DNA of 64,000 nucleotides from NCBI RefSeq assembly GCF_009905215.1, contig NZ_CP047593.1, forward strand, positions 1,616,900 to 1,680,899. Direction: 5' to 3'. The notes beneath the pieces are model-generated. The model was not told the origin of the DNA. It saw only the letters and a list, made by a program, of their open reading frames with translations, and made no database searches. A program made the position numbers and the translations under genes. Positions 8,176 to 34,486 of the stretch are shown here, in pieces. Source of the DNA: Tichowtungia aerotolerans. Lineage in GTDB: Bacteria > Verrucomicrobiota > Kiritimatiellia > Kiritimatiellales > Tichowtungiaceae. The stretch's first letter is position 1. Each line of letters begins with the position of its first letter.

Positions 8176-10323
8176 ATGAGTCAATTTTCAAACGAATGGT
8201 CAATTTCAGAATCGGTGTATCATCCGGCCAATGAACGCACGGGCGGAACGCTGTTCTGCATTGGGAACGGTCTGATGGGGCTGCGCGGCAGCTATGAGGA
8301 ACTCGGCACCAAAGAGGTGCAGGGGTTGTTTGCTGCCGGCGTTTATCGCAAATCCATCGAGCAGCAGTTCTGCATTGCCGATACGTTCTGTCGCAAAAAA
8401 TACATTTTCGATGAAGAGCTGATGCCGACGCCGGAAGAGATGTACCTGATCCAGAACCTGCCGGATCCGCTGTACTGCAAGATCTGGCTGAATGGCGAAC
8501 CGTTTCGCATGTGGGACGGGAACCTGCTGGAATACAACCGCACGCTTGATCTGAAAACCGGCGTGCTGCACCGCACTGTCCGCTGGGATGACGGTAAGGG
8601 AAACATCACCTCGTTGAAATTCCGTCGCTTCTGCTCGATGGACGAACGCCACCTGATCGCTCAGGAAATTTCCATTACGCCGGAAAACTGGTCGGGCGAA
8701 GTGAAGATTGAAAGCGGTATCGATGCCTCACTCAACAATGAATATGCCGAGAGTGTGGTTGCTGAAACGCCGGCGGGACTGACGTTGAAATCCGAGGTGC
8801 AGGGCGGAGCAGTCGCTTTCCAATGTTTGGAAACACGATTGCATCGTGGCGCATCCATTCCGCTGGAATGGGATTCAGAGATAAAGCTTCGGCGTTACAA
8901 AAAGATTGCGACGGTGCGGGCGGAGCAGGGCAAAACGCTGATGCTTGAAAAATTTTCCACGCTCTACTCCACGCAGGACGAAACCCCGCAGGAGGCCGCA
9001 GAGATGCTTGTAAAAAAAGCGGCGGCCGAAGGATTTTCCCAATGTCTGGAAGAAAGTTCCAGGGTTTGGAAAGAGCTGTGGGAGCAGGCGGATATTCGGA
9101 TTGAAGGCGATTCGGAGTCGCAGCGAAAAATCCGCTATGCATTGTTCCATCTGATCATTGCGTCGCCGCAGACGGACTCACGCGTGAGCATCGGTGCCAA
9201 AGCACTGAGCGGACAGGGCTACAGCGGACATGTTTTCTGGGACACGGATATCAACCTCGCGCCGTTCTATCAGTGGGTGTTCCCGGAGTGGGGCGGTGCG
9301 CACGTGCGTTACCGTCATCGCAATCTCGCCGATGCGCGGGCCTATGCGGCATCTGAAGGCCGCAGCGGCGCGCGCTATCCGTGGCAGACGTCGATCGGCG
9401 GATTCGAGCACGCGCCGGTTGCGATCACCTGCAGCCGCACACAGATTCATGTGACGGCGGATATTGCCTACTGCGCGTTGCGCTATGCCGACATCAGTGG
9501 CGATTTCGAGTGGTTGGAAACCGATGGCGCGGAGATGATCCGCGAGTGCGCACGCTATATGGTTGAGCGCGTCGAATATAACGAGGAGAAGGATCGTTTT
9601 GAAATCCACGGAGTTGGCGGGCCCGATGAATATCATCCGCTGACGGATAACAACGCCTACACCAACTGGCTGACGGCGTATGTTCTGCGGCGTGCCGCCG
9701 CGCTGAGCGACGATGCGGATGAACGTTTCCAGTGGATGGACATCGCGGAAAAAATGGTCTGTCCGGTCGATGAAAAAACGGGGCTGATTCCTCAGTGCGA
9801 CGGATTTTTTGATCTGAAAGATTCGTGGGAAATCACCGGCAGCGACTGGGGCGGGCCAGGCGCGGAGTATCATGAGTGTAAGGGTCTGAAGCAGCCGGAT
9901 GTGGTGCTGCTGACAGTGCTTCTGCCGCAGCTTTTTAAGGAAAAATATCTGCGTGCGAACTGGGATTATTACGAGCGGTTTATTCTGCACGGTTCGTCGC
10001 TGAGTCCGTCGATTCATGCGCTGGTGGCGGCGCGGATCGGGCTGATGGATAAGGCCATGGACTATTTTAATCTGTCGGCGGATTTTGACACCCTGGATGT
10101 TAATAAAGATACATGGGCCGGGATTCACATCGGCAACTTCGGCGGCCTGTGGCAGGCCCTGGCCTACGGGTTCGCCGGTCTGCAGGTTCGCGATGGACAG
10201 CTGTGCACAGATCCGCACCTGCCGGAACAGTGGAAATCACTGTCGTTCAATGTCTGGTATCAGGGAACCCAGCACCGGATTGAAGTATGCAACCGACCCG
10301 AAGCAGAGCCTGTTTTGGCGTAA
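8176..10323 (+). CDS. GH65 disaccharide phosphorylase (maltose/kojibiose/nigerose type)
   Basis: A 715-residue GH65 protein. The N-terminal beta-sandwich runs to about 270 and the (alpha/alpha)6 barrel from about 310. Family residues are visible: FWDTD at 354-358, the general acid E485 in GGPDEYHP followed by NNAYTN, KQPDVVLL, and the phosphate-binding loop HGSSLSPSIHA from 605. These indicate an inverting phosphorylase acting on an alpha-glucosyl disaccharide and yielding beta-glucose 1-phosphate; which disaccharide is not clear. There is no signal peptide, so it is cytoplasmic. I chose ATG 8176 because GAGGGG lies six bases upstream and GH65 homology begins there; a longer reading from GTG 8104 lacks support. 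Palindrome copies occur at 8818 and 9057, with a near-copy at 9037. The 3' end overlaps the next gene by 37 bases. Confidence 0.92.
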   Translation: MSQFSNEWSISESVYHPANERTGGTLFCIGNGLMGLRGSYEELGTKEVQGLFAAGVYRKSIEQQFCIADTFCRKKYIFDEELMPTPEEMYLIQNLPDPLYCKIWLNGEPFRMWDGNLLEYNRTLDLKTGVLHRTVRWDDGKGNITSLKFRRFCSMDERHLIAQEISITPENWSGEVKIESGIDASLNNEYAESVVAETPAGLTLKSEVQGGAVAFQCLETRLHRGASIPLEWDSEIKLRRYKKIATVRAEQGKTLMLEKFSTLYSTQDETPQEAAEMLVKKAAAEGFSQCLEESSRVWKELWEQADIRIEGDSESQRKIRYALFHLIIASPQTDSRVSIGAKALSGQGYSGHVFWDTDINLAPFYQWVFPEWGGAHVRYRHRNLADARAYAASEGRSGARYPWQTSIGGFEHAPVAITCSRTQIHVTADIAYCALRYADISGDFEWLETDGAEMIRECARYMVERVEYNEEKDRFEIHGVGGPDEYHPLTDNNAYTNWLTAYVLRRAAALSDDADERFQWMDIAEKMVCPVDEKTGLIPQCDGFFDLKDSWEITGSDWGGPGAEYHECKGLKQPDVVLLTVLLPQLFKEKYLRANWDYYERFILHGSSLSPSIHALVAARIGLMDKAMDYFNLSADFDTLDVNKDTWAGIHIGNFGGLWQALAYGFAGLQVRDGQLCTDPHLPEQWKSLSFNVWYQGTQHRIEVCNRPEAEPVLA

Positions 10324-11936
10324 GGCAGCTGCTGTCGCTGGTTGCACTGACCGCCGGCTGTGCGGTCGGCGCGCAGCTGCAGGCCGACCGGTTTTTTCAG
10401 GACGGAGTGAATCTGCTGGCCCCGGTCGGCGGCGCGGTGGAAGGCCGGCTCCTGTATCAAGATTCCTACGATGAAACTGTTTGGAGTCTGGCCCAGTGGG
10501 GCAGTCGGGGGACGCTCTGGGGGACGGAGCCGTATAGGCTTCCGAGCGGTGCAACGGTCTGGAGCAATGCGTTCAAGCATGTGGTGTTCGGGCCGCTGAC
10601 CCATTCGGACGGCAATGTGGTTCTGGCGGTGAATGCGATCAATGAATATGGCGGGGTATACCGTCAGTCGGGCGAGAGCTGGCCGGCGCTTTTGATTTCG
10701 CAGAGCATCAGCAACCCGAAGGGATGGTTCAAGGAATACGGGCCGTGGATTTCGGATTTGAGTGAAGTGATCGTTGATATCGAACTGAATCTGCGGTACG
10801 CCAATCATATTTATACGACTGGTTATTCCGAGAGTCTTCATGCCGCTCAATTCCTGCTTTATTTTACGATCCAGAATCTGCGGCTTCCGCGGGATACCAA
10901 TCCCGATTATGGGAATTACCTTTGGCTTGGACTGCGTTTTTATGATGATCGGGAAACGCTGCCCGGCCTGTCGGTCAATCATGATATTGGAACCGGTAAG
11001 CTGATCTACAATATCGGCATCGAACCGTTTACGGATGAAGGCCTGCAGGTGGGTGAGTGGAAGCGGATCAAGGGCGACCTCCTTCCGCATATTAAAGCCG
11101 GACTGCAGGAGGCGTGGAGCCGGGGCTATCTGACCAACTCCTTTGATCTGGCCGACTACAAGATCGGCGGCATGAATATGGGCTGGGAAGTTCCGGGGCT
11201 GAGCGATGTGGCGATGCAGGTTCGCAATTTCAGCGTACAGGCCTACGGTCTCGACTTCGCTCGACCGTTTGAGTTTAACAAGGACGGCGATGCTGAAGGC
11301 TGGACATACAGCCGCCTGACCCAATTGAATAACGGGCCATACAACGGCCGCTGGATTTTTAAGGTGCCGGGCGATGATCCGCAGCTGATCGGGCCGGCGT
11401 TGCGGCTGAACGCAGAGCGCTATCAGTCCGTTCTGTTCGGGATTGCCAATGCGGGCAATCCGATCGATGGCAGTGTGGCGACGCTCTTCTGGAAACGCGA
11501 AGGCGATGCGGACTTTTCAACCAACCGCTCGGTTTCGGTGGCCGTCGGTAACGGCGGCGGCTGGCAGATCAAAGAGTTCGACCTGAGTGCGCATCCGCAA
11601 TGGACCGGCGAGATTGTTCAGCTGCGGTTTGATCCGGTTGCCTATGGTGATGATCATGCCATTGGGGTTGATTTTATCCGGCCGATATCCGCTGCAGCAA
11701 TTGCACAGGGCGATGCGCCGGATATTCAGATGAAAAACGATATGCTTTACTGGGTTGGAGCGCCTTATCAGCAGTATACGCTTCAGGTTTCCACGAACCT
11801 TTCTGAAAACAGCTGGACGGATGCAGAAAATGCCGTGAATCTGCCGTGGAGCGATTCAGTGATGTTTCATCCGCTCGCGGCCACGAACCGCCCGGCCCGG
11901 GCTTTTTATCGGCTGCAGGTGTCACCGGGACCGTAA
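10287..11936 (+). CDS. Secreted protein of unknown family (paralogue of 33116-34486) with C-terminal Ig-like module
   Basis: A 549-residue protein that I do not recognise. Residues 1-29 look like a signal peptide (VRQLLSLVALTAGCAVGAQ). The core, about 30-465, is beta-rich with many aromatic residues and aligns along its length with the protein at 33116-34486. Shared strings include NRF/DRFFQ near the start, YANHIYT, HAAQFL, GTGKLIYNIGIEPF, MNMGWEVPGLS and IGPA/E. The last ~80 residues form a separate module with the YTLQVSTNLSENSWT motif, found at the end of several other secreted proteins here. The start lies inside the GH65 gene (37-base overlap) and the GH13-like gene follows directly, so it belongs to that operon. 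A carbohydrate-binding or lyase-like jelly roll is possible, but I can see no catalytic motif. Confidence 0.85.
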   Translation: MQPTRSRACFGVRQLLSLVALTAGCAVGAQLQADRFFQDGVNLLAPVGGAVEGRLLYQDSYDETVWSLAQWGSRGTLWGTEPYRLPSGATVWSNAFKHVVFGPLTHSDGNVVLAVNAINEYGGVYRQSGESWPALLISQSISNPKGWFKEYGPWISDLSEVIVDIELNLRYANHIYTTGYSESLHAAQFLLYFTIQNLRLPRDTNPDYGNYLWLGLRFYDDRETLPGLSVNHDIGTGKLIYNIGIEPFTDEGLQVGEWKRIKGDLLPHIKAGLQEAWSRGYLTNSFDLADYKIGGMNMGWEVPGLSDVAMQVRNFSVQAYGLDFARPFEFNKDGDAEGWTYSRLTQLNNGPYNGRWIFKVPGDDPQLIGPALRLNAERYQSVLFGIANAGNPIDGSVATLFWKREGDADFSTNRSVSVAVGNGGGWQIKEFDLSAHPQWTGEIVQLRFDPVAYGDDHAIGVDFIRPISAAAIAQGDAPDIQMKNDMLYWVGAPYQQYTLQVSTNLSENSWTDAENAVNLPWSDSVMFHPLAATNRPARAFYRLQVSPGP

Positions 11937-13472
11937 ATGATGATTAGACGATTTGTTTTTTTAATGCTGGGAATGCTGCCGTTGGGGACGATGGCGGTAG
12001 ATAATTCAGACCTGCTTCCGTTGGTACGCAATGAGCGGGGCGTCGACATGGAGGGCATGTCGCCCGACTGGGTCAAGTCGCTGATCATGGCGGAGTTCCG
12101 CATTGAAACCGCGACACCGGAAGGGACCTTCTCCGCCGCGGTAAAAGTGCTCGATCATTACGCGGAAACCGGCGTGAACGGTCTGTGGGTCGGGCCGATC
12201 TTCGAGCGTCCGCCGGGCAGGAACGGGTATGGAAATTTCGGGCCGGACACGGTGGAAGCAGCGCTGACCGGTGAAGCCTCTCTTGAGAAATCCTATCGGG
12301 AAATCCGGCGGTTTGTTGATGCGGCCCACGACCGTAACATCCGGGTGATTTTTGATATTGTAGCGTGGGGAGTCACGGAGTCCGCACCGTTTTTTAAGGA
12401 GCGCCCGGAATTTTTTATTCGTCAGGACAACGGAGAATTCAGGCAGGCGTGGGGCGGCTACCTGTTTGACTGGAAGAACCCGGAGTTCCGGGAATGGTTC
12501 AATGCCGCAGCGGTCGCTTTTATCGAAGAAACCGGAGCAGACGGTTTCCGCGTGGATCTGGCCCCGGATACGTCGGGCTATCACTTCAAAGAGATCCGTG
12601 AGGAACTGGTTCGAAAAGGGCATAAGATTCTGATTATGAGTGAAATGCCTTCAAAACCGAGGGGCACATTTGATTGTGCCCAGCTTGGAGTGAATGGCTG
12701 GACCGAGCCGCCGATATACAATCCGAAGGAGAAGTTCGAGGAACAGAAAAAGCGGTTCGGCAGCATGCACGACAGCTCCTTTGTTTTTCGCACGAACATT
12801 GTGGATGCCATTCAAACCGGCGTAGGGATCGGCCCTCCGCAGATCCAGCAGAAGGGTGAAGGCGGCCTCTTCCGTTTTTACGCGGCATCACCGCTCTATC
12901 ACGATGGACATGCGCCGTTTGTAAAAGGAAACCGGGTCCGGTTCGGCTATCTTGCGTTACTGCCGTTTATTCCCGTCTGGTGGATCGGCGAAGAGTGGAA
13001 CAATCCCCGCGACCTGCTCCAGCAGAAAGGAGCCATGTATTACAACCGCATCAACTGGGATGTGAAAAACGAGCCGCAGAATGCCGCGTTTTTTGAGGAC
13101 GTAAAACGCATCCTGCGGGTGCGTCGATCATACCCTGATATTTTTGAGAACTTCCCGGAACATCTTAGAGACGCCAGTATCTGCAAGGTGGAATCTTTTC
13201 GGGACGGCCATCCGAACCCGCTGCAGGCCTATCTGCGTTTTTCGGATCGTCGTGCCGTGCTGGTTGTTCCCAATTACATGGCGGCATCGTCCTCATCTCA
13301 TTTTTCGGTTGAGCTGCCTTGGGACGAATGGCCGGCGAAAGGCTCGTCATTTATTGTGACAGACCTGATGAGCGGCAATATCATTGCTGAGGCCGATCGG
13401 GCGGAGCTGAGATCATTTGAGGTCGAACTCCCGGCGGAACATCTTGGGATATATCTGCTGGAGCGCAGATAA
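11937..13472 (+). CDS. Secreted GH13-like alpha-amylase family protein with divergent motifs
   Basis: A 511-residue protein with a signal peptide (1-20, LGTMA). The TIM-barrel order of GH13 is visible: LWVGPIFE, YGNFGPD, then GFRVD with the likely nucleophile D207, and ILIMSEM with the likely acid E236. Two usual GH13 regions deviate: region I reads FDIVAWG in place of the common DxVxNH, and I cannot find a clean NHD region IV, although YHDGH at ~320 might replace it. The C-terminal beta domain is present. It may cleave alpha-glucan or an alpha-glucosidic linkage outside the cell and feed the GH65 phosphorylase. It begins directly after the stop of the preceding gene. Because of the altered motifs, specificity or even activity is uncertain. 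Confidence 0.82.
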   Translation: MMIRRFVFLMLGMLPLGTMAVDNSDLLPLVRNERGVDMEGMSPDWVKSLIMAEFRIETATPEGTFSAAVKVLDHYAETGVNGLWVGPIFERPPGRNGYGNFGPDTVEAALTGEASLEKSYREIRRFVDAAHDRNIRVIFDIVAWGVTESAPFFKERPEFFIRQDNGEFRQAWGGYLFDWKNPEFREWFNAAAVAFIEETGADGFRVDLAPDTSGYHFKEIREELVRKGHKILIMSEMPSKPRGTFDCAQLGVNGWTEPPIYNPKEKFEEQKKRFGSMHDSSFVFRTNIVDAIQTGVGIGPPQIQQKGEGGLFRFYAASPLYHDGHAPFVKGNRVRFGYLALLPFIPVWWIGEEWNNPRDLLQQKGAMYYNRINWDVKNEPQNAAFFEDVKRILRVRRSYPDIFENFPEHLRDASICKVESFRDGHPNPLQAYLRFSDRRAVLVVPNYMAASSSSHFSVELPWDEWPAKGSSFIVTDLMSGNIIAEADRAELRSFEVELPAEHLGIYLLERR

Positions 13473-13642
13473 CTTTTTCCAATCCCTGGAAACAGGCCGA
13501 GCCCGCATATTTTCATTTTTCCAAAAGCCGGAAACAGGACTGTTTTTCACGGCTTTGGCGTAATTGTGATGAAATTAGTCTGATATTTTTACTGCACCTC
13601 TTGACGGTCGCGTTACAATTCCCCGTGGAAGGGGAGGATAAC
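13473..13642. other. Intergenic region with two palindrome copies
   Basis: This gap holds one exact copy of the dispersed palindrome at 13478-13492 and a one-mismatch copy at 13519-13533, about 41 bases apart, directly after the GH13-like stop codon. They could form weak hairpins, but neither is followed by a clear T-run. A GGGGAGG ribosome-binding site for the next gene is at 13631-13637. Confidence 0.7.
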
Positions 13643-14143: not shown

Positions 14144-14235
14144 GAAAAATGGGCAGGTTTTCGAGAGGGTTTCCGGAAACAGTTCCGGGGCAGTTTATGT
14201 TTTTGTGGTTACTCCCGTCCGATGTGATTCAAGCC

Positions 14236-14310: not shown

Positions 14311-14311
14311 G

Positions 14312-14352: not shown

Positions 14353-14405
14353 CTGGTATTTTTATCAAATTCTCTGCAATCCCGTGAAATGACAGGATCA
14401 ATAAT

Positions 14406-21900: not shown

Positions 21901-23161
21901 GGGACAAATGGATGTCGATTATGACCTTTTTACAGGCCAGACAATTCTTCGTGATCCAACGGTTTTAAATGACTATGAGGCGATTGTGCTGAACCTGACC
22001 CGAATGGATCTTGGTGCGGTGAGTAATGTCCTGAGTACATGCACTCAGCCGGTATTGATGGCCGGACGCATGGATGTGGATGCCTTGGCCAATTACGGAA
22101 CCGGGGTTCGTCCGGCGCTCGAAAACATGTTGCTTCGTCCGCGTGTCGAGCTGGCGGCCGAGCAGAGCGGGCTATCCGGCTGTTCTGTGAATCTTTCCCG
22201 GAAATGGTTTTTTACCACCGATCCGGAGGAGGCTGGCGAGACAAAAGGATTTCCTGCGCTGGAGGACTTTTCCGGATGGGATTCGCTGGCGGTTCCGGGT
22301 GCCTGGGAAGATGAGGCGATCAGTCGGGGACGCTACACCGGCTATGATGGGGTCGGCTGGTATGCTGTGCAGTTTGAAATTCCAGACTCCCTGTCCGATG
22401 CGGACCTTACGTTTTATGCTCGTGCCATTGACGATCAGGATGAGGCTTTTTTCAATGGTGTGTCGATTGGTAAAACCGATACCTCGGTTCCGAACTACTG
22501 GAAGGCGGCGCGCAAGTATCGAATTCCACAAAAGCTGGTTCGGGAAGGCGTGAATACACTGGTGGTCCGCGTTATCGATAACAAAGGGAACGGAGGAATG
22601 GTTCAGGGGCCGGTGGAAATCGGTCCGTGGGAGTATCAGGACTGCGAGATTGTTTTGCAGCGGCCGCTCGGAAAAGTTGCCGCGGGCCTTCTTGGAAACA
22701 TTTCCGTGGCGGCGTCCCAGGAAAGTGTGACGCGGGATCAGCTGTTGCCGGGAGTTGAGGAGGTTGCCACATTCGGAGATTCTGCGGCGCTGATTAAAAA
22801 AGATAACTTCTATCTTTATTTCGGCGGTGACGGCATTGCGCTGAACGCGCTGAATGACGCCGAGGCGAAAGTGCTGGCAGCCTTTTTGACGAGCACAGAT
22901 GTCGGAGCCGTTTATCCGGTAACGCCCGAGAGCCGCGACCTGAACATTCGTCGTTTCACAAAATTCGCCTTTGTTGAAAACGAAGCACAGGATGCAGTTC
23001 CGGTCAACCTGACCACCCTGTTCCCGGAGAAGGAAATTCTCTGGTACCAGATCTTGGAGGAACCGTTCGAAACCAGAACAGATCTGGGTGAAAACATCGT
23101 CATCCCGGCATCGGGACTCCTCGGAGTTGCATTTAAAGCGGAACAGGCCGTCGCACAATGA
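18914..23161 (+). CDS. Secreted multidomain clan GH-A glycosidase (GH5/GH42-like) with LamG-like and F5/8 type C domains
   Basis: A 1415-residue exported protein. After a signal peptide (about 1-28, ending ARA) come a LamG-like beta-sandwich (about 30-220), an F5/8 type C-like domain (about 250-400), a charged helical linker (about 405-560), a TIM barrel (about 585-930), a flavodoxin-like domain as in GH42 trimerisation modules (about 940-1060) and a GH2-type sugar-binding beta-sandwich (about 1085-1215), then a tail. In the barrel, IIANEPN gives a likely acid/base glutamate near 724 and WYAGEMW a likely nucleophile near 909. The domain set suggests an exo-acting beta-galactosidase or beta-mannanase-like enzyme; exact family and substrate are open. 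CAGGAGAG precedes ATG 18914. Its stop overlaps the sulfatase ATG. Confidence 0.85.
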   Translation: MMTTRYTRWLQLTICSLLLAGPFGRARAQDFFVGRERAGARVSLSSTVSLPPFALLEADEKTYLKVEGRGGSAYELDNCLQGSEGSVSMDLAMIDDEKPGLTRQDFLTMTGADGFGFTAAYLHVEQVVLVSFWSRESFGGHYHKIKIPFEWTKGTSHQLVMNWKQQADGKMELTLSAGDEIRTAKIPFGFPPFKRLLVGFTPYKKSAEYQGLALADIVFRDKAVKIEPRTQVGFVPTEAADAGPVNSVAVLYAPPGRVQDNHLLRDVRYAFNDDLNSSWRQPRNQANIFITIDLRMPTKVTGWRMAATLPRPFSSPRWDRDENRNLCRDLGPAAYVAQYSEDGINWKTFYQPPKTMKVYPKRHHEIVLPQPITTRFLRLGYPNKSQLGFGVVADIVIRGEGGKEIDSCRRRRDINRMWRQLEYTEQKLSYVRKASAELEEKYDLVFVPAELSVLETQTAELVEKLAGIRQVSDSPLDAFRQTSEELVAKTEALHAQANQWLAVAAFPSRVKIAERRVGIMGTPAELQATLEELTQISVRRDFRDRDRFEELAESINEAFRSYALEHKAFAYRDGRFFHHPDGSKLIPWGLNYNLVGAPVQTILERPCDFDMGSLIEYDESDFRNLHLMGFNTIRLVTRSHVMEIDCDTGEYDKEYFDHLQKVLDYCTKYEIYVIMDLHHWYAGLDRFVGSPNASGPFLSMVFDRLVDLCYDEPMLLVYEIIANEPNLDENTPLMFDHPDRSNVSDAYLLRTAWNQWLKNKYGTREVLQAAWSRTGKFQPENSLGDNESWDDETIFAPHELLRKYPYMSFKDMTRLRDFYAYCMSVYNGIAKDLVEQIKAKDPDHLINYNVSHDLQRVTRVKGISENFPTYCRWWFDNPPEGADSITDHYEIVGMSHKFRPTGMPWYAGEMWIFQDNAKYFSEMLACGGGIIGWQYFPGRKFEHALGFDRWLRDHWKIWPEVSWFFNNADGFQKARLAIVVSSLTPESGFTGIAGLLGQMDVDYDLFTGQTILRDPTVLNDYEAIVLNLTRMDLGAVSNVLSTCTQPVLMAGRMDVDALANYGTGVRPALENMLLRPRVELAAEQSGLSGCSVNLSRKWFFTTDPEEAGETKGFPALEDFSGWDSLAVPGAWEDEAISRGRYTGYDGVGWYAVQFEIPDSLSDADLTFYARAIDDQDEAFFNGVSIGKTDTSVPNYWKAARKYRIPQKLVREGVNTLVVRVIDNKGNGGMVQGPVEIGPWEYQDCEIVLQRPLGKVAAGLLGNISVAASQESVTRDQLLPGVEEVATFGDSAALIKKDNFYLYFGGDGIALNALNDAEAKVLAAFLTSTDVGAVYPVTPESRDLNIRRFTKFAFVENEAQDAVPVNLTTLFPEKEILWYQILEEPFETRTDLGENIVIPASGLLGVAFKAEQAVAQ

Positions 23162-24497: not shown

Positions 24498-24578
24498 CCT
24501 TAGGGGGCGCTGCGATGTGCGCATATCGAGAAAAACCGATTTCATTTGACTGAAAATAAAGATGAGGAGGACGGGAAT

Positions 24579-26426
24579 ATGAAGATGTACAGCACCTTAA
24601 TTATATTGTGTTTGTTCGCTCTTAGCCACGCCGGAGCTGCTGTTACAGATGGGTTTGACAATGGAGTGGTTGCGGACAGCGATACTCTTACGGGATTCTG
24701 GAGTTTGTCCACAAATATCAATGCTACTGCCCAGGAAGATGCGTCAACACTGACGCTTACTGCAGCCGAAGCAAGCAGCCAAAGGGCAACGCTGCTGTCA
24801 GCGAGCGATGGTGTTATGAATTTCTGGGCCGATCCGGTTTCCCTGGCTGTAAATGAGTTTTCATTTTCTCACACGTCCGGTGTGACGGATTCGGATACGA
24901 TTTTTCATTTCGGCTTCAGTGATCATGGAGTCGCCACCTCCATGCGTAACATGAAGGACGTGTTTGCGGTCAGTCTGCGTCGCAGCGGAAGTCTGATCGT
25001 CGGCTGGAAAACGACAGTTTCGGTGAATCCCGAGGATGGGAATGATGTCCTGGATACCACGATTGCAGATCCGCTGTTGGTGGATTCGATTGAATTGCAG
25101 CTGGACGGGACGGGTTCGCAGCTGGCGTGGTCTGTCGTTATCGGCCGCGGTGGAGTGTATGAAACTTATTCCAACACGCTCAGCGTTGCTGATACGGCAA
25201 CCCTGAAAACAGAATGGGATGCCGCAGGCCGCTATCGGGTTGCTCTGGAAGGGCAGAGCGGAGGTTCGGTCGGCGCCGGGGAATCGGTGCAGGTCGATAT
25301 CGGGGCGATTGTGATTTCTCCTGTCGTTGCAGCTTCGGGGCCGGGAACCGATATTACAGATGGGTTTGACAATGGAGTCGTCGAGAACAGCGATACCCTT
25401 TCAGGATTCTGGGGTTTGTCCACAAATGTTAATGCGACCGCTGAGGAAGTTGCGTCAACACTGACGCTTACTGCAGCCGAAGCAAGCAGCCAAAGGGCAA
25501 CGCTGCTGTCAGCGAGCGATGGTGTTATGAATTTATGGGCCGACCCGGTTTCCCTGGCTGTAAATGAATTTTCATTTTCTCACACGCCTGGTGTGACGGA
25601 TTCGGATACGATTTTTCATTTCGGATTCACAGATCATGGAGTTGCCACCTCCATGCGTAATATGAAGGACGCATTTGCGGTCAGTCTGCGTCGTAGCGGA
25701 AGTCTGATCGTCGGCTGGAAAACGTCAGTTTCGGTGAATCCCGAGGATGGGAATGATGTCCTGGATACCACGATTGCAGATCCGCTGTTGGTGGATTCCA
25801 TTGAGTTGCAGCTGGACGGGACGGGTTCGCAGCTGGCGTGGTCTGTCGTTATCGGCCGCGGTGGAGTGTATGAAACTTATTCCAACACGCTCAGCGTTGC
25901 TGATACGGCAACCCTGAAAACAGAATGGGATGCCGCAGGCCGCTATCGGGTTGCTCTGGAAGGGCAGAGCGGAGGTTCGGTCGGCGCCGGGGAATCGGTG
26001 CAGATCGATATCGGAGAGGTTATCATTTCCATGATTGTTTCCGACTCTCAGACAACCCGCGGAACTCCTCATTCATGGCTGGATACCTATTATTCCGGAT
26101 TGGTGTCTGATGCTGATTATGAGAACGCTGATCTGACGGATTCGGACGGGGACGGTCTCCTGGCCTGGGAGGAGTATCTGGCGGGAACGAATCCAGCCGA
26201 TGAAACTTCCGTATTTGCTGTTTCTTCGACCGTTCCGGACGGGAACAGTTTGATTGTGACCTGGTATTCCGTTGCGGGCAAAAAGTACAGCATCTTGACC
26301 AATCTGGACCTGGTTTCTCCGGCGTGGGGAGTGGCTGAGTCTAATATTGTCGGACAGGCCGGTGAAACCTCGTACACCACCACGGTCAACAATGCTTCCG
26401 CCTTTTACCGGATCGGGCTGGAGTAG
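24579..26426 (+). CDS. Exported protein with two tandem 'FDNG' domains, TSP3-like Ca2+ motif and C-terminal Ig-like module
   Basis: A 615-residue secreted protein of no recognised family. Signal peptide 1-20 (LSHAGAA). Two domains of about 225 residues follow, each opening TDGFDNGVV and running through AVSLRRSGSLIVGWK to QVDIG or QIDIG. They are nearly identical in protein and DNA, with a 711-base period. The same domain occurs once each in the proteins at 26557 and 30191. A short segment DSDGDGLLAWEEYLAGTNP resembles thrombospondin-3 calcium repeats, and the end (KKYSILTNLDLVSPAW...FYRIGLE) is the Ig-like module shared by other secreted proteins here. A carbohydrate-binding or surface-attachment role is possible; no catalytic residues are evident. 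GAGGAGG precedes ATG 24579. Confidence 0.85.
   Translation: MKMYSTLIILCLFALSHAGAAVTDGFDNGVVADSDTLTGFWSLSTNINATAQEDASTLTLTAAEASSQRATLLSASDGVMNFWADPVSLAVNEFSFSHTSGVTDSDTIFHFGFSDHGVATSMRNMKDVFAVSLRRSGSLIVGWKTTVSVNPEDGNDVLDTTIADPLLVDSIELQLDGTGSQLAWSVVIGRGGVYETYSNTLSVADTATLKTEWDAAGRYRVALEGQSGGSVGAGESVQVDIGAIVISPVVAASGPGTDITDGFDNGVVENSDTLSGFWGLSTNVNATAEEVASTLTLTAAEASSQRATLLSASDGVMNLWADPVSLAVNEFSFSHTPGVTDSDTIFHFGFTDHGVATSMRNMKDAFAVSLRRSGSLIVGWKTSVSVNPEDGNDVLDTTIADPLLVDSIELQLDGTGSQLAWSVVIGRGGVYETYSNTLSVADTATLKTEWDAAGRYRVALEGQSGGSVGAGESVQIDIGEVIISMIVSDSQTTRGTPHSWLDTYYSGLVSDADYENADLTDSDGDGLLAWEEYLAGTNPADETSVFAVSSTVPDGNSLIVTWYSVAGKKYSILTNLDLVSPAWGVAESNIVGQAGETSYTTTVNNASAFYRIGLE
24645..25313 (+). repeat. 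Tandem domain repeat, copy 1
   Basis: First of two long, nearly identical direct repeats coding for the 'FDNG' domain. The second copy is at 25356-26024 (period 711 bases, 237 codons, frame kept). Long runs are identical, for example around 24749-24828 and 25460-25539, pointing to recent duplication or gene conversion. Confidence 0.85.
25356..26024 (+). repeat. Tandem domain repeat, copy 2
   Basis: Second copy of the repeat beginning at 24645. Differences are mostly single-base and often silent. Confidence 0.85.
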
Positions 26427-26556: not shown

Positions 26557-28263
26557 ATGAGCGTGTCTCGATATATCTTAACCGGTCCGGTGGGTTCAAA
26601 ATCCGGGTTGATGGTTTTAGTGGGACTGGTGGTCGTCCTGCTTTTCTCCCGGGAGGTCCGGGGGCAGTCACTGATTGAAACAATCGACTATGAAACCGGC
26701 GATTTATCCCAGTGGAAAAATCCGAGCAGCAGCAACCATGACGGCTCCATCACGCCAGCTGTCGTTGCCTCGCCGGTTCGTTCCGGTTTTTTTTCGGGAC
26801 ACTATGTGATGCTGGATGGCCGCACGGAAAGTGCGGCGCAACGGATCCCCCTGGAGACAGAAATCTGGGCCGGGTGGTCGCTGTTTATTCCTCAAAGCCT
26901 GCCGGATGCGGAGACCGGGACAGTTTCGCAGTTTATCGGTTATCAGCCGCCGGATTTTGAAGGCGGGAATTATCACGTCAAAATAAGCGGCGGCAGCTGG
27001 GGAGTTTGGATGCGCAATATCGGCGCGAACAGTGCGGATGTTTTGGGCTTGCGCCCGGTGCAGAAAGAAGAGTGGACCGATCTGTTTGTCCATGCACGGT
27101 TTTCTTATACCAACGGTTTTTTCACCTTGTACATTCGTGATTCTGAAGGAGAACAGCGGTTCGACCTGATTGAATCCGGGCAGACATTTGTCGATGCCCC
27201 GCTGGGGCCGTATTTTAAAGCCGGATTGTATGCCGGATTTTCCGAAGGGTCGGACATTTTTGTTGATGAATATCGTGTTTGTATCGCCGGACAGCGCAGG
27301 GATGTTGATCCCGCGATGAGGGTTTCGGCCGGGGTGCCGGAGCTTCTGTCCATTCAGCCGGAGTCCCGGTCCCGGTTTGTTCGCTTGGCATGGAGCTCGA
27401 TTCCCGGAGCCGCTTATCAGGTTTTTGGATCGCGCAGTCTGTCGCCGTGGACCCCTTCTTTGCTGACGGCGGTCAGTGCAAATGACAACTTCGCTGGCAC
27501 GTCGATCCCGATGGGGGGAGATTCCTCATGGTTTTTTACAGTCACTCCGTTTTTTACCGGAGTGGTTGATCGGTTTGATAACGGCGCGGTAGAAGACAGC
27601 GATTCCATCGCCGGATTCTGGAGCGTGTATGCAAATGCCGGGTATTCAGCTGCGACCGAGTCTGGATCAGCGCTGACATTGTCGGCGTTCGACGCCTCCA
27701 GCAAAAGAGCAACACTTCTTTCCGACAGTGTTTCCGCCGCCGATTTCTGGTCCAATCCGGTGTCTCTTAAAATTAATGAATTTTCGTACTCTCACGCAGC
27801 AGGTGTTCAGGACGGCGACACGATTTTTCACTTTGGGCTCACGGCTCATGGGGTCGCTGTCAGCATGCGCAACATGAAAACTGTGTTCTCCGTCAGTTTG
27901 CGGGCGAACGGCAGTTTGGTTGTCGGCTGGAAAGCCGAAGTCGGACTGAACCCCGAGGATGGCACAGATCTGCTGGACACGGTGGTTTTGGATACGGCTT
28001 TGATTGATTCGGTTGAGTTGCAGCTCGATGGCACCGGATCTCAATTGGTGTGGAGTATTACCTTGGGCCGGGATGGAGTCTATGAGACGTACAGCGATAT
28101 GATGAGTGCGACCGATACGTTTGCTCTGAAAACCGAGTGGGCTTCTGCGGAACGCTATCGTGTTGCTGTTGAAGGACAGAGCGGCGGTTCAGTGAATACT
28201 TCTGGCGAGTATGTTCGGTTCGAGATCGGTGAGGTGATTCTTGAGGCGGGCTTGAGTCCTTAG
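26557..28263 (+). CDS. Exported polysaccharide-lyase-like jelly roll (PF14099-like) fused to an 'FDNG' domain
   Basis: A 568-residue protein. A hydrophobic segment at 18-31 (LMVLVGLVVVLLF) followed by VRGQ is a likely signal peptide. Residues ~38-250 resemble the PF14099 jelly roll of PL20 glucuronan lyases and heparin lyase I relatives: the IDYETGDLSQW start, the ETEIWAGWSLFIPQSLP strand, HARFSYTNGFFTLYI, and FKAGLYAGF followed by VDEYRV. I could not place catalytic residues with certainty. Residues ~262-330 form the Ig-like module (YQVFGSRSLSPW), and ~340-568 hold the same 'FDNG' domain as the preceding protein. GGTGGAG lies five bases before the ATG. It could cleave uronic-acid-containing glycan, or just bind it. 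Confidence 0.75.
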   Translation: MSVSRYILTGPVGSKSGLMVLVGLVVVLLFSREVRGQSLIETIDYETGDLSQWKNPSSSNHDGSITPAVVASPVRSGFFSGHYVMLDGRTESAAQRIPLETEIWAGWSLFIPQSLPDAETGTVSQFIGYQPPDFEGGNYHVKISGGSWGVWMRNIGANSADVLGLRPVQKEEWTDLFVHARFSYTNGFFTLYIRDSEGEQRFDLIESGQTFVDAPLGPYFKAGLYAGFSEGSDIFVDEYRVCIAGQRRDVDPAMRVSAGVPELLSIQPESRSRFVRLAWSSIPGAAYQVFGSRSLSPWTPSLLTAVSANDNFAGTSIPMGGDSSWFFTVTPFFTGVVDRFDNGAVEDSDSIAGFWSVYANAGYSAATESGSALTLSAFDASSKRATLLSDSVSAADFWSNPVSLKINEFSYSHAAGVQDGDTIFHFGLTAHGVAVSMRNMKTVFSVSLRANGSLVVGWKAEVGLNPEDGTDLLDTVVLDTALIDSVELQLDGTGSQLVWSITLGRDGVYETYSDMMSATDTFALKTEWASAERYRVAVEGQSGGSVNTSGEYVRFEIGEVILEAGLSP

Positions 28264-28378: not shown

Positions 28379-28387
28379 ATCCTACAA
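28379..28387 (+). promoter_or_regulatory. Candidate operator ATCCTACAA
   Basis: Exact copy of the motif at 24489, about 60 bases before the GH127-like gene. With the preceding GTAGG (28371-28375) it forms GTAGG-5 bases-CCTAC. Confidence 0.45.
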
Positions 28388-28446
28388 GCTGGGTTGAGGG
28401 CATATCCGCTCCGAACTTCTGATGGATTTAAATGAAAGGAAATCGA

Positions 28447-30147
28447 ATGACAGTTGTTTACGACAAGTACGATCTGCGTGCCACCGCATCGCGGGCACTT
28501 CATTATCTGACTTCTATGGTCGACCCGGACTATGATAACCTGCCGTACTGGTTGATCGGCATTAATGAAAATCCGGCATGGGCGGAGCACTGCCGGGTGG
28601 ATGATGCTGAACTGGTTGCATCGTGGTACGAAGCAATTGTTTCGGTCCGCGACATTCTGGGAGAAGAAAAAGGGGCGGATGTTGAAGCTTCCTTTCGCCG
28701 GCATATTATGAAGTCATGGGGAGAGCACGGATTGCGTTACCATGAAGACTACCCCTGGAGCAAAACCAACCATAGCTCCTTTCATGAAATGGCCTATATT
28801 CTATCAGCGCTTAACCGTATGCTGGCTAACAATCCGGACGATAAAGAGGCCGAACGACGTGCGTCAGAATTGGTGCGGGGAATGCGTAAGCTGATCATTC
28901 AGCGCAAGACCAAAACATTCTGGTCCGGGGATTATGAAGAGCCGGAGGTGATTTATGAGTTTCCCAACGATGTTTATTTGCGGGATGGCGGGTTTGATCA
29001 GAGTTGTCATACCGGTCGTGGCGAGCTCTCCATTCGCAACGGCATGATGCTGCATGCGTTGACGGTACGTTATGATCAGGCTGGGGATGAAATCGCTCTG
29101 GATCTGGCGATTGGTATTGCCAACCATCTGCTGGGCGTCAGCCGCTATTTTAACTGGAAAATGGAATTCTTCGGGCACGTTCACTCAGCGGTTTGGGTCG
29201 CTAGCGGATTGGTTCGTCTCGGGCGTATTGCCAAAGAGAGTCGATATATTGAAAAAGGGAAAGCGATTTACGATTATGTCCGTTCCCTGTCCTCCTCTTT
29301 TGGTTGGGTTCCGGAATATGCGCAGTGGCATCCGATGGATGAGGAGCATTGTGAGACCTGCTGTATCAAAGATATGATTGAGTGCTGTACGGAACTGATT
29401 GAAGCCGGATATGATGAATGCTGGAACGATCTGAACCTTTTTATCCGCAATCAGTTGGAGGAAAATCAGGTTAAAGACGGTAAGTTTGTTGCGGTCGACA
29501 ATACTCAGGAAGCTACCGTAGCCCGAACCTATCAGGACATTGATGAACGAGTGATCGGCGGCTGGTCCGGCGGCGCGCTGCCTAATTCAATCTCTCTGAG
29601 CCGTTTTCGATCGATTGCCGGCTGTTGTGTCGGGACGGCTCCGCAGGCCCTGAAGCTGGTCTGGGATCGCGTGATCTCTGAGACGCCGGATATGCTGGTG
29701 GTTAACCTGCCGATTGAAAAAGAGACGGAAAGCGTGTCGGTTGAAGTCGGCTATCCGAACGAAGGGTACATCTGTGCAAAAGTGAAGCAGGACGGCGTCG
29801 TAGCAATCCGCCTGCATCCCTGGATGCCGGAAAAGGTGACGTTTTCAGTCGATGGCAACCCGGTAGAATGCCGTGTGGAAAACGGGCTGGCGATTTTTCC
29901 GACCGTTTCCGAGGGCAGTGCGGTGGAACTGAGTCATGAACTCGAAACTGTGGAGCATACAGAAGAGGTGGCCGGCGGCGAATACACCGGAATCTGGCGT
30001 GGTCCCGATGTGGTGGATCTGCTTCCACACGGCGACCCGCTTCGTCTCTATCAGCGTCGGGCCGATATGCCAAAAGAATATCCGGAGGCGTCTCAAAGGG
30101 GTGGCGGTAAAGGGTTTAATATGGCGCCGACGGAACAGAAACGATAG
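28447..30147 (+). CDS. GH127/GH146-like glycosidase (DUF1680-type), cytoplasmic
   Basis: A 566-residue alpha/alpha-barrel protein. The cysteine pattern suggests GH127: E290 in WVPEY, C302/C305/C306 in HCETCC, and the pair C393-C394 in AGCCVGTAPQAL. In the beta-L-arabinofuranosidase HypBA1 a glutamate and three cysteines, including a CC pair, hold zinc, and one cysteine is the nucleophile. The spacings here are similar but not the same, so this could be a sister family with different specificity. A C-terminal beta domain (about 410-530) is present, as in GH127. There is no signal peptide. I chose ATG 28447 since AAAGGA lies upstream at the right distance; ATG 28432 is in frame. It carries an ATCCTACAA site upstream. 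Confidence 0.72.
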   Translation: MTVVYDKYDLRATASRALHYLTSMVDPDYDNLPYWLIGINENPAWAEHCRVDDAELVASWYEAIVSVRDILGEEKGADVEASFRRHIMKSWGEHGLRYHEDYPWSKTNHSSFHEMAYILSALNRMLANNPDDKEAERRASELVRGMRKLIIQRKTKTFWSGDYEEPEVIYEFPNDVYLRDGGFDQSCHTGRGELSIRNGMMLHALTVRYDQAGDEIALDLAIGIANHLLGVSRYFNWKMEFFGHVHSAVWVASGLVRLGRIAKESRYIEKGKAIYDYVRSLSSSFGWVPEYAQWHPMDEEHCETCCIKDMIECCTELIEAGYDECWNDLNLFIRNQLEENQVKDGKFVAVDNTQEATVARTYQDIDERVIGGWSGGALPNSISLSRFRSIAGCCVGTAPQALKLVWDRVISETPDMLVVNLPIEKETESVSVEVGYPNEGYICAKVKQDGVVAIRLHPWMPEKVTFSVDGNPVECRVENGLAIFPTVSEGSAVELSHELETVEHTEEVAGGEYTGIWRGPDVVDLLPHGDPLRLYQRRADMPKEYPEASQRGGGKGFNMAPTEQKR

Positions 30148-30190
30148 CGGTAGTTCCGGGAGGGAAGCCGTCGTGTTCAAAAGAGGAAAC

Positions 30191-30958
30191 ATGATGAAAA
30201 AATATAATGCTGTTGGTTGTGCCGCAATCGCGGCCGGTCTATGTGTGGTTTCGGCTGCTGCGCAGTCTTTTGTCGACTGCTTCGACAATGGCGTCGTAGC
30301 AGAGAGTGATTCGATCTCACGATTTTGGCGTGAGGCGAAGTCTGCGGACTGCGCGGTTTCGGAAAATGCTTCCGCGCTGATTTTGCGTTCAGAAGGAGCT
30401 CCCAGTCGTCGCGCCACGATTCTTTCCAAAAACATGGATGAGGCCGATTTTTGGTCTGCTCCGGTTTCATTGAAAATCATCGGTTTTTCGTTTGATCAAT
30501 ACGGCGTGACTGCGGCGGATACCATCTTTCACTTCGGATTCACGGCTCACCACACTGAAATGGCCATGCGAAATATGAAGGACCTTTTTGTCGTCAGTTT
30601 TCGCAAGAGCGGCGACCTGAAACTTGCTTGGAATACGGTTGAAGGAGTTAATCCGGAAGACGGGAATATATTACGATCGGAAACCGTTTCGGATGGAGCA
30701 GATGTGGATTCGTTCGACTTGCAGGTTAACGGCTCCGGCAAAAAACTGGTGTGGAAACTGATTCTGGGACGCAATGGCAAATTGGAGGCCTTTTCGGGAG
30801 AACTGAGTGCTCCCGATACGGAGACGTTGAAGGAGGCGTGGCAATCTGCCGGACGCAGCCGGATTGTTCTGGAGTCTCAAACCGGCGGATCTGCCGGCCC
30901 TGGCGAATATGTTGAAGTGCGCATTGATCAGGTTACGGTCGATCTCGGAAGTGAGTAA
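30191..30958 (+). CDS. Small exported protein made of one 'FDNG' domain
   Basis: A 255-residue protein: signal peptide 1-24 (VVSAAAQ) followed by one complete copy of the ~225-residue 'FDNG' domain (DCFDNGVVAESDSISRFW to VEVRIDQVTVDLGS). It keeps the strings DTIFHFGFT, AMRNMKD and NPEDGN shared with the copies in the proteins at 24579 and 26557 but is more diverged. A protein of this domain alone shows that the domain can fold and act by itself. AGAGGAAAC precedes the ATG; a longer in-frame reading from 29936 lies inside the GH127-like gene and is not credible. The HAD gene follows after two bases. Function unknown. Confidence 0.82.
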   Translation: MMKKYNAVGCAAIAAGLCVVSAAAQSFVDCFDNGVVAESDSISRFWREAKSADCAVSENASALILRSEGAPSRRATILSKNMDEADFWSAPVSLKIIGFSFDQYGVTAADTIFHFGFTAHHTEMAMRNMKDLFVVSFRKSGDLKLAWNTVEGVNPEDGNILRSETVSDGADVDSFDLQVNGSGKKLVWKLILGRNGKLEAFSGELSAPDTETLKEAWQSAGRSRIVLESQTGGSAGPGEYVEVRIDQVTVDLGSE

Positions 30959-30960
30959 AG

Positions 30961-31839
30961 ATGGATTATATTTCTCAACTGAGGAGTTTTCCCCGGGAAA
31001 ACGACTTCTTTATTGGCTTTGACAGCGATGGTTGCGTATTTGACTCAATGGAGCTGAAGCACAAAGAATGCTTTTGTCCGGCTGTAATCAAACATATGCG
31101 TTGTCAGCCGGTCAGTAAAGCTGCCCGGGAAGTATGGGACTTTGTCAACCTCTACAGTAAAACCCGTGGATGCAATCGCTTTCTTGCTCTTCAGTATTTC
31201 CGCGACCTGCTCAATGCGCGGCCAGACGTGAACGCCCGCGGATTCCAGCCATTGGAACTCCCTGAACTGGATGCGTGGGTTAAACGTGAGAGCAGGTTGG
31301 GCAACCCGGCGCTGGAAAAGGAAGTTGAACGGACCGGGAATGAAGAGCTCAGGAAGCTGTTCGACTGGAGTCTCGAAGTCAATGGGCGTGTACTCGATAT
31401 GGTTGACGGTGTGCTGCCGTTCCCTGGAGTCATGGATGTTTTAAGACAGGGCAAAGGTCGTGCGGACATGATGGTTATTTCCCAAACGCCGCTCGATGCT
31501 ATCGAGCGCGAATGGGAAGAGAATGGAATGACCGGATATGTCCGTCTGATCGCTGCTCAGGAACACGGCACTAAAACAGAACACATTCGTTTTGCGACAG
31601 AGGGAAAAGGGTACGGTCCCGACAGCGTGCTGATGATCGGTGATGCCCCCGGTGATGCTCAGGCCGCCGCCGATAACAATGCTCTCTTTTATCCAATCCT
31701 TCCCGGACATGAAGAGTCTTCCTGGGCTCAACTGGCTGGAGAAGGACTGTCCCGGTTTTTTGACGGAACCTATAACGGAAACTACCAGCAGATGCTGCTT
31801 CAAAAGTTTGATGCTTCCTTGCCCGAAAACCCGGTTTGA
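30961..31839 (+). CDS. HAD-superfamily hydrolase (sugar-phosphatase-like)
   Basis: A 292-residue cytoplasmic HAD phosphatase-type protein. Motif I is FDSDGCVFD with D21 as nucleophile and D23 as acid/base; motif II is the SQT of VISQTP; motif IV is GDAPGD. A helical cap insert lies between about 35 and 150, which suits a C1-cap enzyme of the phosphoglycolate/beta-phosphoglucomutase group. The motif IV string GDAPGDAQAAADN is common in phosphatases. The substrate cannot be read. It is the last gene of the block, two bases after the preceding stop. A palindrome copy (31243-31257) is read as FQPLEL. It may dephosphorylate a sugar phosphate from the local pathway. Confidence 0.85.
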   Translation: MDYISQLRSFPRENDFFIGFDSDGCVFDSMELKHKECFCPAVIKHMRCQPVSKAAREVWDFVNLYSKTRGCNRFLALQYFRDLLNARPDVNARGFQPLELPELDAWVKRESRLGNPALEKEVERTGNEELRKLFDWSLEVNGRVLDMVDGVLPFPGVMDVLRQGKGRADMMVISQTPLDAIEREWEENGMTGYVRLIAAQEHGTKTEHIRFATEGKGYGPDSVLMIGDAPGDAQAAADNNALFYPILPGHEESSWAQLAGEGLSRFFDGTYNGNYQQMLLQKFDASLPENPV

Positions 31840-32114
31840 TGTCACGATCTGTTTTAACGAAACCCTTCTCAGAATTCACCGGGTCCGTTCAGGTCTGCGC
31901 CATGGTGGCCCAGGTCCATGCCGCCCACCGTAACAGGTTCGCTTGATCGCGCGCAGTTCGACATGAGCCGGGATCCTGAATGGCTGAATAGGAACAGTGT
32001 TGCAGTGAACTGATCTTTTTGTTTGGTTTCTATTAATTTTTATACGCAGATCTGCGGCGCGAACTTTTAGAACCCCGATTATCATCCTGCCTCGCAACAA
32101 AAAAGGAGGTATTG
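31840..32114. other. Intergenic region
   Basis: About 275 bases with no gene I can support. GCAGATCTGC (32046-32055) is a perfect 10-base palindrome. AGGAGGT just before 32111 is a strong ribosome-binding site for the next gene. Confidence 0.5.
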
Positions 32115-33080
32115 ATGAGGTCGGTGTTTCGCCTGTTCTGTCTAATTCCCGTTTTGGGGGTTTCTTTTGTCTTTTCACTGACATCTCTGGCGACGGATGA
32201 TGATCATCTGGTTAGCGGAGATATTGGGTCGGTTACTTCGGATTTCTATTATGAAGGAAACCCGCCTTATGGCGATGAGACCGTTGCCGGATGGGATCTG
32301 ATTTCTGAACCGACAAATGCAATTACAGGCCTGTGGGGTAATAAAACCGGGCTGTTTGTTCCTTCGCCGTATGGGAACTACGGAGTGGGTCGCAGTTCAA
32401 CCCAACCGACGACCTATGTGCAGATTTATGGGAACCAGACCGGAATCTGCCTCGATGTTCAGCCGGGGGAAGTGGCCAGCCAGACCTATAATCCAAACGT
32501 CAAATATTATTAGAAATGGAACAAAGACTATTATATGGGAAGTCAGGGCGTAAAGACATGGCTTTATCCATATCATACCGCTTATTCCAATTCGAATCCA
32601 CGTCTACAGTGTTCATTTGATGCGGCCGTCAAGACGTCAACCGGCTCTGGGGTACGGCATGCGAATACTGCGTTTCAGTGGCTGGATGAAGAGTCCGGAA
32701 CCATCATTTATGTTCAACATTATATCTATGACAGCCGCAGTACAATCAACGCGGTCAGTTCCGGCTACGATCCGAAAATTAATCAGCTCTGGATTGCGCA
32801 GAAACTCGGAGCGGCCGGCACCTATCACGGTACTCTCTCGAGCTCGTCAGTTTTCACCAACGGAGTGTGGTTGGATTATGAGTATTTCGGAATCGATCAA
32901 TCATGGAACCATTTTTCCACCATGATCAGCTATCTGAACAACAAGCACGGCATCAGTCTCGGAACCGACCGGGACAAATGGCGGCTGGTATATGCCACAT
33001 TGAATCTGGAAATGCAGCAGGGCTACGAAGGATGCCTCGCCGGCAAGTTCAGGAATATGGAGGTATGGACCCGTTATTGA
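32115..33080 (+). pseudogene. Exported protein of unknown family interrupted by an in-frame TAG
   Basis: One reading frame runs from ATG 32115 (strong AGGAGGT upstream) to 33080, but codon 133 is TAG (32511-32513). On both sides the frame is the same and the composition alike: ...NPNVKYY, stop, KWNKDYYMGSQGVKTW... The N terminus is a signal peptide (LGVSFVFSLTSLA). The whole, about 320 residues, is rich in Tyr, Trp, Asn and Ser and looks like a secreted beta-sandwich, with no motif that I recognise; ATTLNLEM-type strands near the end and IYVQHYIYD recall jelly-roll glycan-active proteins. No ribosome-binding site precedes the next Met (32544), so the second part is unlikely to be made alone. 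Recent nonsense mutation, readthrough or a sequencing error are all possible. Confidence 0.75.
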
Positions 33081-33115
33081 GTCGAACATAAAAGAATAAA
33101 GAAAGAAGTACAGTG

Positions 33116-34486
33116 ATGAAAAAACAGAGTATTGGTGCAGTATTGTTTATCGCGGCCGGATGGTGCTCAGCATTTGAGCTGATTACAGATAACCGGTTTC
33201 AGACCGGGCTTAATGCGCTGGATCCGGATACCGGTGCCGTGGAGGGGGAAATTCAGTATACAACCGCCAATGGCGATCCCGCATGGAAACTGGCTCAGTG
33301 GAACAGCCAGGCCAGTGTTTATGGTCAGAGTCCAAGCGTTCTGCAATCCGGAGCATACCAGTGGGCGAACCTTTACAAAGCAATTGTGATGGGCCCGACC
33401 AATACTGCAGACAGTGACCTGAAGCTAACCGTTAATTCAATCAATGAGCATAATGGAGTGTATCAGACGAATAATGATGAGCGCCCGGCAATGCTTGTGT
33501 CTCAAAAAATCAGCGAACCAAATGGACATATTGGAGTGGCATCTCCCTGGATTTCCGAGATGACCGAGTTGAACTTTAATGTGGATGCAAAGCTCTGTTA
33601 TGCAAATCATATTTACACAAATGGTTATAATTCCCTGATACATGCTGCGCAATTCCTTGTATATTTCACCGTTCAAAACCTGAATACATCATCCTTGGAT
33701 TACGGCGAATATCTGTGGTTTGGATTACGGCTGTATGACGACCGGGTTGACCTTCCAGGACTGGCTGTCAAAGAGGACATTGGAACCGGCAAGCTGATTT
33801 ATAATATTGGAATTGAGCCGTTTTGCACAAATGGCTTGGCTCTGGGTGCGTGGAAGAACATTTCCGGAGACCTGCTTCCTTATGTGGAAGATGCTTTAGA
33901 TGCAGCATGGCAACTGGGTTACCTGACCAACTCCATGACATATAACGATTATAAAATTGGAGCCATGAATATGGGCTGGGAAGTGCCGGGCCTAAGTTGT
34001 GTAGCGATGCAGGTTAAAAATTTCGGGCTGGAAACCTACGGTCTTTATTTTCCCAAACCCTATGAGTTCAATGTAAATGGTGATCGGGAAGATTGGGCGT
34101 TCGCCAACCTGACGGAAGTTTATGACGGTCCATATAACGGGGTGTGGATTTTTACTGCTTCACAGTCCGGGCCTCAGCTTATCGGGCCTGAAATTCTGGT
34201 CGATGCGGAAATGTATCCGAAAGTGATCGTGAAAATGGCGAATGCCGGCAATCCGGCGGCGGCGAGCGTGGCCCAGCTGTTCTGGAAATGCACGGGCGAT
34301 ACTTCATTTTCAGAAGCCCGGTCGAAAAAGGTCAATATCGGCAATGGCGGCGGATGGGTGGAGTACACCTTCGATATGACGAATGACCCGGACTGGCATG
34401 ATGAAATCATCCAGCTGCGACTCGATCCCATCTACTACGGGGATGGGCATGCCGTTGGTATCGATTATATAAGGTTTTCGGAATAA
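33116..34486 (+). CDS. Secreted protein of unknown family (paralogue of 10287-11936)
   Basis: A 456-residue exported protein, signal peptide about 1-19 (GWCSAF). It is the second member of the unrecognised family seen at 10287 and matches its core from end to end: DNRFQTGLN, AVEGEIQY, VNSINEHNGVYQ, YANHIYTNGY, HAAQFLVYFTVQNL, LWFGLRLYDDR, GTGKLIYNIGIEPF, MNMGWEVPGLS and GDGHAVGIDYIRF. It lacks the Ig-like tail of the other protein and stops at the end of the core, which defines the natural domain limits. Its beta-rich, aromatic-rich make-up suggests one or two jelly rolls acting on a glycan; nothing more specific can be said. It follows the interrupted exported gene closely and is followed by sulfatases. 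Confidence 0.85.
   Translation: MKKQSIGAVLFIAAGWCSAFELITDNRFQTGLNALDPDTGAVEGEIQYTTANGDPAWKLAQWNSQASVYGQSPSVLQSGAYQWANLYKAIVMGPTNTADSDLKLTVNSINEHNGVYQTNNDERPAMLVSQKISEPNGHIGVASPWISEMTELNFNVDAKLCYANHIYTNGYNSLIHAAQFLVYFTVQNLNTSSLDYGEYLWFGLRLYDDRVDLPGLAVKEDIGTGKLIYNIGIEPFCTNGLALGAWKNISGDLLPYVEDALDAAWQLGYLTNSMTYNDYKIGAMNMGWEVPGLSCVAMQVKNFGLETYGLYFPKPYEFNVNGDREDWAFANLTEVYDGPYNGVWIFTASQSGPQLIGPEILVDAEMYPKVIVKMANAGNPAAASVAQLFWKCTGDTSFSEARSKKVNIGNGGGWVEYTFDMTNDPDWHDEIIQLRLDPIYYGDGHAVGIDYIRFSE

Follow-up and report, generated by a model that had tools for sequence, protein, structure and literature searches.

Two paralogous genes on the forward strand of a 64,000-nucleotide stretch of the Tichowtungia aerotolerans genome (RefSeq assembly GCF_009905215.1, contig NZ_CP047593.1, positions 1,616,900 to 1,680,899; the whole stretch is called the window, and coordinates are counted from its first letter) encode the secreted proteins P0001 (549 amino acids, 10287-11936) and P0002 (456 amino acids, 33116-34486), members of a family not described before. 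Each consists of an N-terminal domain (N-domain) with the predicted jelly-roll fold of glycoside hydrolase family 12 (GH12), followed by a C-terminal domain (C-domain) resembling carbohydrate-binding modules (CBM). On the strength of sequence comparisons and a structural model we give a chance just short of one half to the reading that both are extracellular glycan-active proteins, with a GH12-type jelly roll and a CBM-like module, which probably act by single-step cleavage.

The two proteins are identical at 235 of 449 aligned residues (52%; 489 bits, E 1e-174 in BLASTP), a similarity far above the chance level, and the strings GTGKLIYNIGIEPF, MNMGWEVPGLS and HAAQFL have the same letters in both. 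The original prediction, which had recognized two open reading frames (ORFs) matching over about 430 residues with such shared strings and a signal peptide on each product, was borne out on these points, the hydrophobic, signal-peptide-like leaders at both N-termini being judged by eye. The ATG of P0002 at 33116 is preceded by AAGAAAGAAG; the ORF finder placed the start at the GTG at 33113. When the genome and the phylum were searched, the match split near residue 310 of P0002 into two domains, so the earlier match of about 430 residues is real but is made of a core peculiar to the family and a CBM-like module of wide occurrence. The core, the N-domain of about 290 amino acids, constitutes the family proper (residues 20-310 of P0002 and about 31-322 of P0001) and the C-domain follows it at about 315-455 and 327-466, respectively. 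P0001 carries in addition a tail of about 80 residues (about 467-549), for which no family assignment was found. A genome-wide search revealed exactly two full-length copies in the host, the remaining matches being confined to the C-domain.

Relatives of the family were gathered by a search across genomes of the phylum and class to which the window belongs. The N-domain was found in 15 of the 387 sampled genomes of the phylum (about 4%) and in 18 of 346 of the class, typically as a single copy per genome. Most members are lone secreted or lipoprotein-like domains of about 300 residues, those at L020-L022 with lipobox-like leaders, and one member (L088:5276-8815) is fused to long autotransporter-type beta-strand repeats. 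Divergence within the set of 24 sequences reaches 18% identity. No Pfam family was detected for P0001 or P0002 at E values up to 10, and NCBIfam gave nothing relevant, its sole match being an irrelevant one to P0002 at 0.27. A Pfam scan of 17 family members (E up to 1) yielded no match to PF01670, the GH12 profile, and a single match to an unrelated ABC family (0.076); the GH11 profile was likewise matched by neither P0001, P0002 nor the family members. PDB sequences were hit neither by P0002 alone nor by the family profile, PLSDB plasmids gave no match for the N-domain, and the host genome contains no PF01670 match. Scanning with P0002 recovered only a C-domain relative from genome contigs and nothing from viral contigs. 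The claim of a new secreted family therefore stands in the sense of an undescribed one: a significant match to a described family, named beforehand as the finding that would overturn it, did not appear in Pfam, NCBIfam or PDB sequence searches.

The AlphaFold2 model of mature P0002, built from the 24-sequence alignment, reached a pLDDT of 88 and a pTM of 0.85, with blocks of the N-domain mostly above 90. The top PDB matches in Foldseek were the GH11 enzyme XynJ, GH12 enzymes and a CBM pair, with GH12 and GH11 dominating. In VIA-align, where the best Z is typically 7-8 for models with no clear match, the N-domain was superposed on many GH12 enzymes with Z of 11-12 over about 180-210 residues (3.6-4.3 Å), and the ends of these structural matches are consistent with a shared last strand. 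The N-domain is accordingly modeled as a jelly roll of the GH12/GH11 type (clan GH-C).

Kinship with GH12 was also detectable at the profile level. The GH12 sequences were drawn from the phylum, plasmids and PDB, the Cel12A sequence of T. maritima being identical to PDB 3amh. Alignment of the 24 family sequences with 11 GH12 sequences, Cel12A included, gave a probability of 78%, a P value of 1.9e-5 and a score of 43.4 in hhalign, as against a maximum of 22.2 for 200 column-shuffled GH12 profiles; with ten GH12 sequences P was 9e-4 and the score 31.8 (shuffle maximum 20.0), and with six P was 0.013, each P value referring to a single comparison. Support thus rose with the diversity of the GH12 profile, global hhalign was uninformative, and control comparisons of the family with the C-domain profile, the PF14099 protein and a sulfatase scored 13-18. 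These alignments support a distant homology of the N-domain and GH12. The earlier statement that no known CAZy signature is visible holds for sequence searches, but not for fold and profile comparisons, which point to GH12; the N-domain protein presumably acts, or acted in the past, in the manner of GH12, with which it shares ancestry.

GH12 enzymes are retaining and use two catalytic glutamates, and the fate of the two differs in the family (residues are numbered as in mature P0002). In the alignment E270 is the partner of the Cel12A acid/base Glu (residue 232 in the sequence compared), with a posterior of 0.997, and this position, inside an invariant GWE motif, is Glu in all 24 members; it corresponds to Glu289 of the P0002 precursor (codon at 33980-33982) and Glu301 of P0001 (11187-11189). 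The GH12 nucleophile, in the motif EIMVW, aligns with G178 at a posterior of 0.71, and G178 is Gly in 24/24 (Gly197 of the P0002 precursor, codon at 33704-33706; Gly209 of P0001, 10911-10913). Four residues further on, the Trp of the GH12 strand B6 motif ExMxW aligns with W182 (posterior 0.84), conserved in 23 of the 24. Whatever the register of the alignment, no conserved acid falls on the nucleophile site, the alternatives being Tyr/Phe/Met (position 180) and mostly Gln/His (position 160). Two other placements were considered and rejected: strand B6 at residues 160-169, with Q160 at the nucleophile site, fits the strand count but neither the spacing nor the W182 match, and residue 179 (D/N/R/E) is Asn in P0001 and its orthologues, Arg in the two most divergent members, and lies in the wrong strand alternation. 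Because a match to the GH12 profile and a nucleophile, both of which define GH12, are lacking, the family is not GH12 in the strict sense and is best described, judging by its sequences, as a nucleophile-less relative.

Other polar residues are nearly invariant as well: D202 (24/24), D189 (23/24), Q168 and R191 (22/24 each), and H157 and D259 (21/24 each); position 188 is Tyr or Phe in every member and position 160 Gln or His in 22. Taken together, the conservation looks like that of an active or binding site. Invariant acidic, His or Tyr residues had been proposed as a sign to look for in homologues, and E270 and D202 are of this kind; there is no invariant Tyr, and H157 falls short of invariance.

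The set of H157, Q160, Q168, Tyr188 and R191 could be read differently, as that of a polysaccharide lyase or other non-hydrolytic jelly-roll enzyme in which His157, Tyr188, Arg191 and Gln residues would take the place of Glu, and a polysaccharide-lyase-type protein (PF14099) is indeed encoded nearby, at 26557-28263. We regard this as improbable: the top fold matches are GH12 and GH11, the neighboring PF14099 protein scores 18.4 against the family, no better than background, and the invariant residue that could be catalytic is Glu270, whereas position 188 is not always Tyr. No polysaccharide lyase occurs among the 50 VIA-align matches listed, although such a relation may exist beyond them. The PF14099 protein has one paralogue elsewhere in the host genome, at G000:C1:476150-476728 (L112).

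The C-domain, of about 140 amino acids, recurs in large proteins throughout the phylum at 25-37% identity. In nine proteins scanned its companions included a sulfatase with LamG, CEMIP/G8, WbsX, DUF5722 and BNR-like stretches, among others. It matches no Pfam or NCBIfam family and no Pfam CBM profile, and its model is superposed by VIA-align on CBM-type sandwiches with Z of 10.8-11.5 over about 130-140 residues. By model and sequence it is apparently an unnamed CBM-like accessory module of diverse carbohydrate-active proteins. The motifs DPQL, LRLDP and IDYI follow one another along the domain, and further examples were collected (L119-L131).

At about even chances, we narrowly prefer a non-retaining, glycan-active enzyme to a pure glycan-binding protein. 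The Gly at the GH12 nucleophile site rules out the classical retaining two-step mechanism. A polysaccharide chain would instead lie across the concave jelly-roll sheet, gripped by W182, Q168, H157, D189, R191 and D202 together with the CBM-like domain; the leaving group would receive its proton from E270, the counterpart of the GH12 acid/base, and water in the space vacated by the glycine would allow cleavage in a single step, with D189, D202 or H157 as the candidate base. We infer the glycan cleavage itself as well as its mechanism and the identity of the base. If so, the family might represent a natural non-retaining branch of GH12 (clan GH-C), with an invariant Gly, another base and a switch from retaining to inverting, a more specific proposal that we consider rather doubtful; to our knowledge clan GH-C is known only as retaining.

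Several observations weigh against cleavage. A missing nucleophile is by itself a hallmark of pseudoenzymes, the nucleophile strand is aligned with a posterior of just 0.71, and the candidate bases D189 and H157 are short of strict invariance. Some single-domain members, moreover, occur in non-carbohydrate settings, next to heme-synthesis-like (G405 contig 81), proB-like (G007) or CoA-disulfide-reductase-like (G004) genes and, in one taxonomic family, a xylose-isomerase-type TIM-barrel gene. A GH12-derived pseudoenzyme, that is a secreted or surface protein whose jelly roll binds polysaccharide uncut and holds the substrate near other enzymes, is accordingly a serious competitor, to which we assign somewhat more than one chance in three. 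It would account for the invariant Gly, for the short lipoprotein-like single-domain members and for the fusion to autotransporter-type repeats, and acid/base glutamates also make direct contacts with sugar hydroxyls, as does Glu216 of NopAA (PMC7303141). We nevertheless favor the enzyme because the acid Glu and the conserved set around it (D202, D189, R191) are kept down to 18% identity and are not obviously needed for pure binding, and because such a combination, a core plus a CBM-like module, is typical of enzymes. The original prediction of an enzyme rather than a filler keeps its footing in the conservation pattern, but the loss of the GH12 nucleophile leaves it unproved.

In sulfatase-rich bacteria of this type sulfatases account for about 4% of the genes, and many of the secreted proteins are still unassigned. 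A catalytic role of the family would mean a new mechanism on the GH12 fold and probably a new substrate as well; otherwise it would offer a clean example of a cellulase fold recruited for binding. In both cases, testable residues are provided for a family overlooked by automatic annotation, and an unnamed CBM-like module present on many enzymes is highlighted.

The genomic neighborhoods of the two genes differ. P0001 starts within the final 37 bases of a GH65 phosphorylase-type gene (8104-10323), whose best solved relative is kojibiose phosphorylase (3wiq), preceded by the gene for an AraC-type regulator with a Peripla_BP_3 sensor domain (6875-8068); both are on the forward strand. The order regulator-GH65-family member is shared by the window and two other genomes, with identities of 66-71% for the regulator, 75% for GH65 and 58-61% for the family member. 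The relationship to kojibiose phosphorylase suggests an alpha-glucoside, without fixing the substrate. As had been noticed earlier, it is the protein with the extra tail that lies behind the phosphorylase gene, and the other one precedes sulfatases: three sulfatase genes are located downstream of P0002. The one adjoining it (34587-36005) and the second (35948-37456), both on the forward strand, have relatives of 64% and 69% identity situated four and five genes beyond the P0001 orthologue of genome G405 (L087), in which the two gene settings of the window are therefore combined. Sulfatase adjacency was considered as functional evidence and set aside as weak, because PF00884 has 138 matches in the 3.88 Mb host genome, in which about 137 genes code for sulfatases; the Kiritimatiellota isolate NLcol2 encodes 165 sulfatases, 4.6% of its ORFs (PMC10880615). 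Such an abundance of sulfatases would fit a marine member of the Kiritimatiellota. Single-domain members elsewhere adjoin a GH29 fucosidase, a GH2-like gene or sulfatases.

That several members adjoin housekeeping genes, and that the family is sporadic, might suggest a structural or envelope protein lacking a sugar ligand in which the jelly-roll fold is merely reused. Such a role seems hardly likely given the CBM-like domain in both copies of the window and in their closest relatives, the conserved GH65 gene order, the conserved polar residues and a homology that is specifically to GH12.

Further features of these regions may be mentioned. The GH12-like lipoprotein gene accompanied by a xylose-isomerase-type TIM-barrel gene was seen in four genomes from one family of the class (L099, L105, L106 and L107), the neighbor presumably resembling EboE. 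Between the sulfatase gene at 23158 and P0002 there are four ORFs with no Pfam match above threshold (24546-26426, 28432-30147, 29936-30958 and 32535-33080), which may encode further undescribed carbohydrate-active proteins; that at 28432-30147 has a very weak GH127 match (E 0.22). The ORF at 48445-51558 encodes a divergent GH106-like protein, and that at 41250-44471 a GH42-like one whose Pfam match is marginal and below threshold.

Among known systems, the closest mechanistic analogue comes from GH97, where the inverting alpha-glucosidase BtGH97a has Gly469 at the site at which retaining members carry the nucleophile (PMC2670981), as the present family has G178. The analogy is one of mechanism only: the fold of BtGH97a is unrelated, the enzyme is calcium dependent and its base is known. 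The C-domain shares its fold with the CBM-type sandwiches of 2q1f (N-terminal domain), the 1wky module, 8qx6 (CBM X584) and 1uww (CBM28), to which it is only 11-15% identical. The Bacillus GH11 xylanase XynJ (2dck) combines a jelly roll of the same clan with a C-terminal binding module, and the P0002 model matches it over both domains (Z 12.4, rmsd 6.3); the likeness is at the level of fold and layout, with 9% identity over the structural match and no match to the GH11 profile. From GH12 (PF01670), represented by Cel12A (3amh) and XG12 of Bacillus licheniformis (2jem), the N-domain is set apart by an identity of about 10%, the absence of a PF01670 match, the invariant Gly in place of the nucleophile Glu, an extra N-terminal segment, an apparently reduced strand B7 and invariant residues of its own (YDDR, D202 and HAAQ). 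With GH12 it nonetheless shares the same jelly roll, a single helix placed ahead of the acid/base strand in the same position, the acid/base Glu in a GxE motif and the Trp of ExMxW, and a profile-level homology that covers the last 165 residues.

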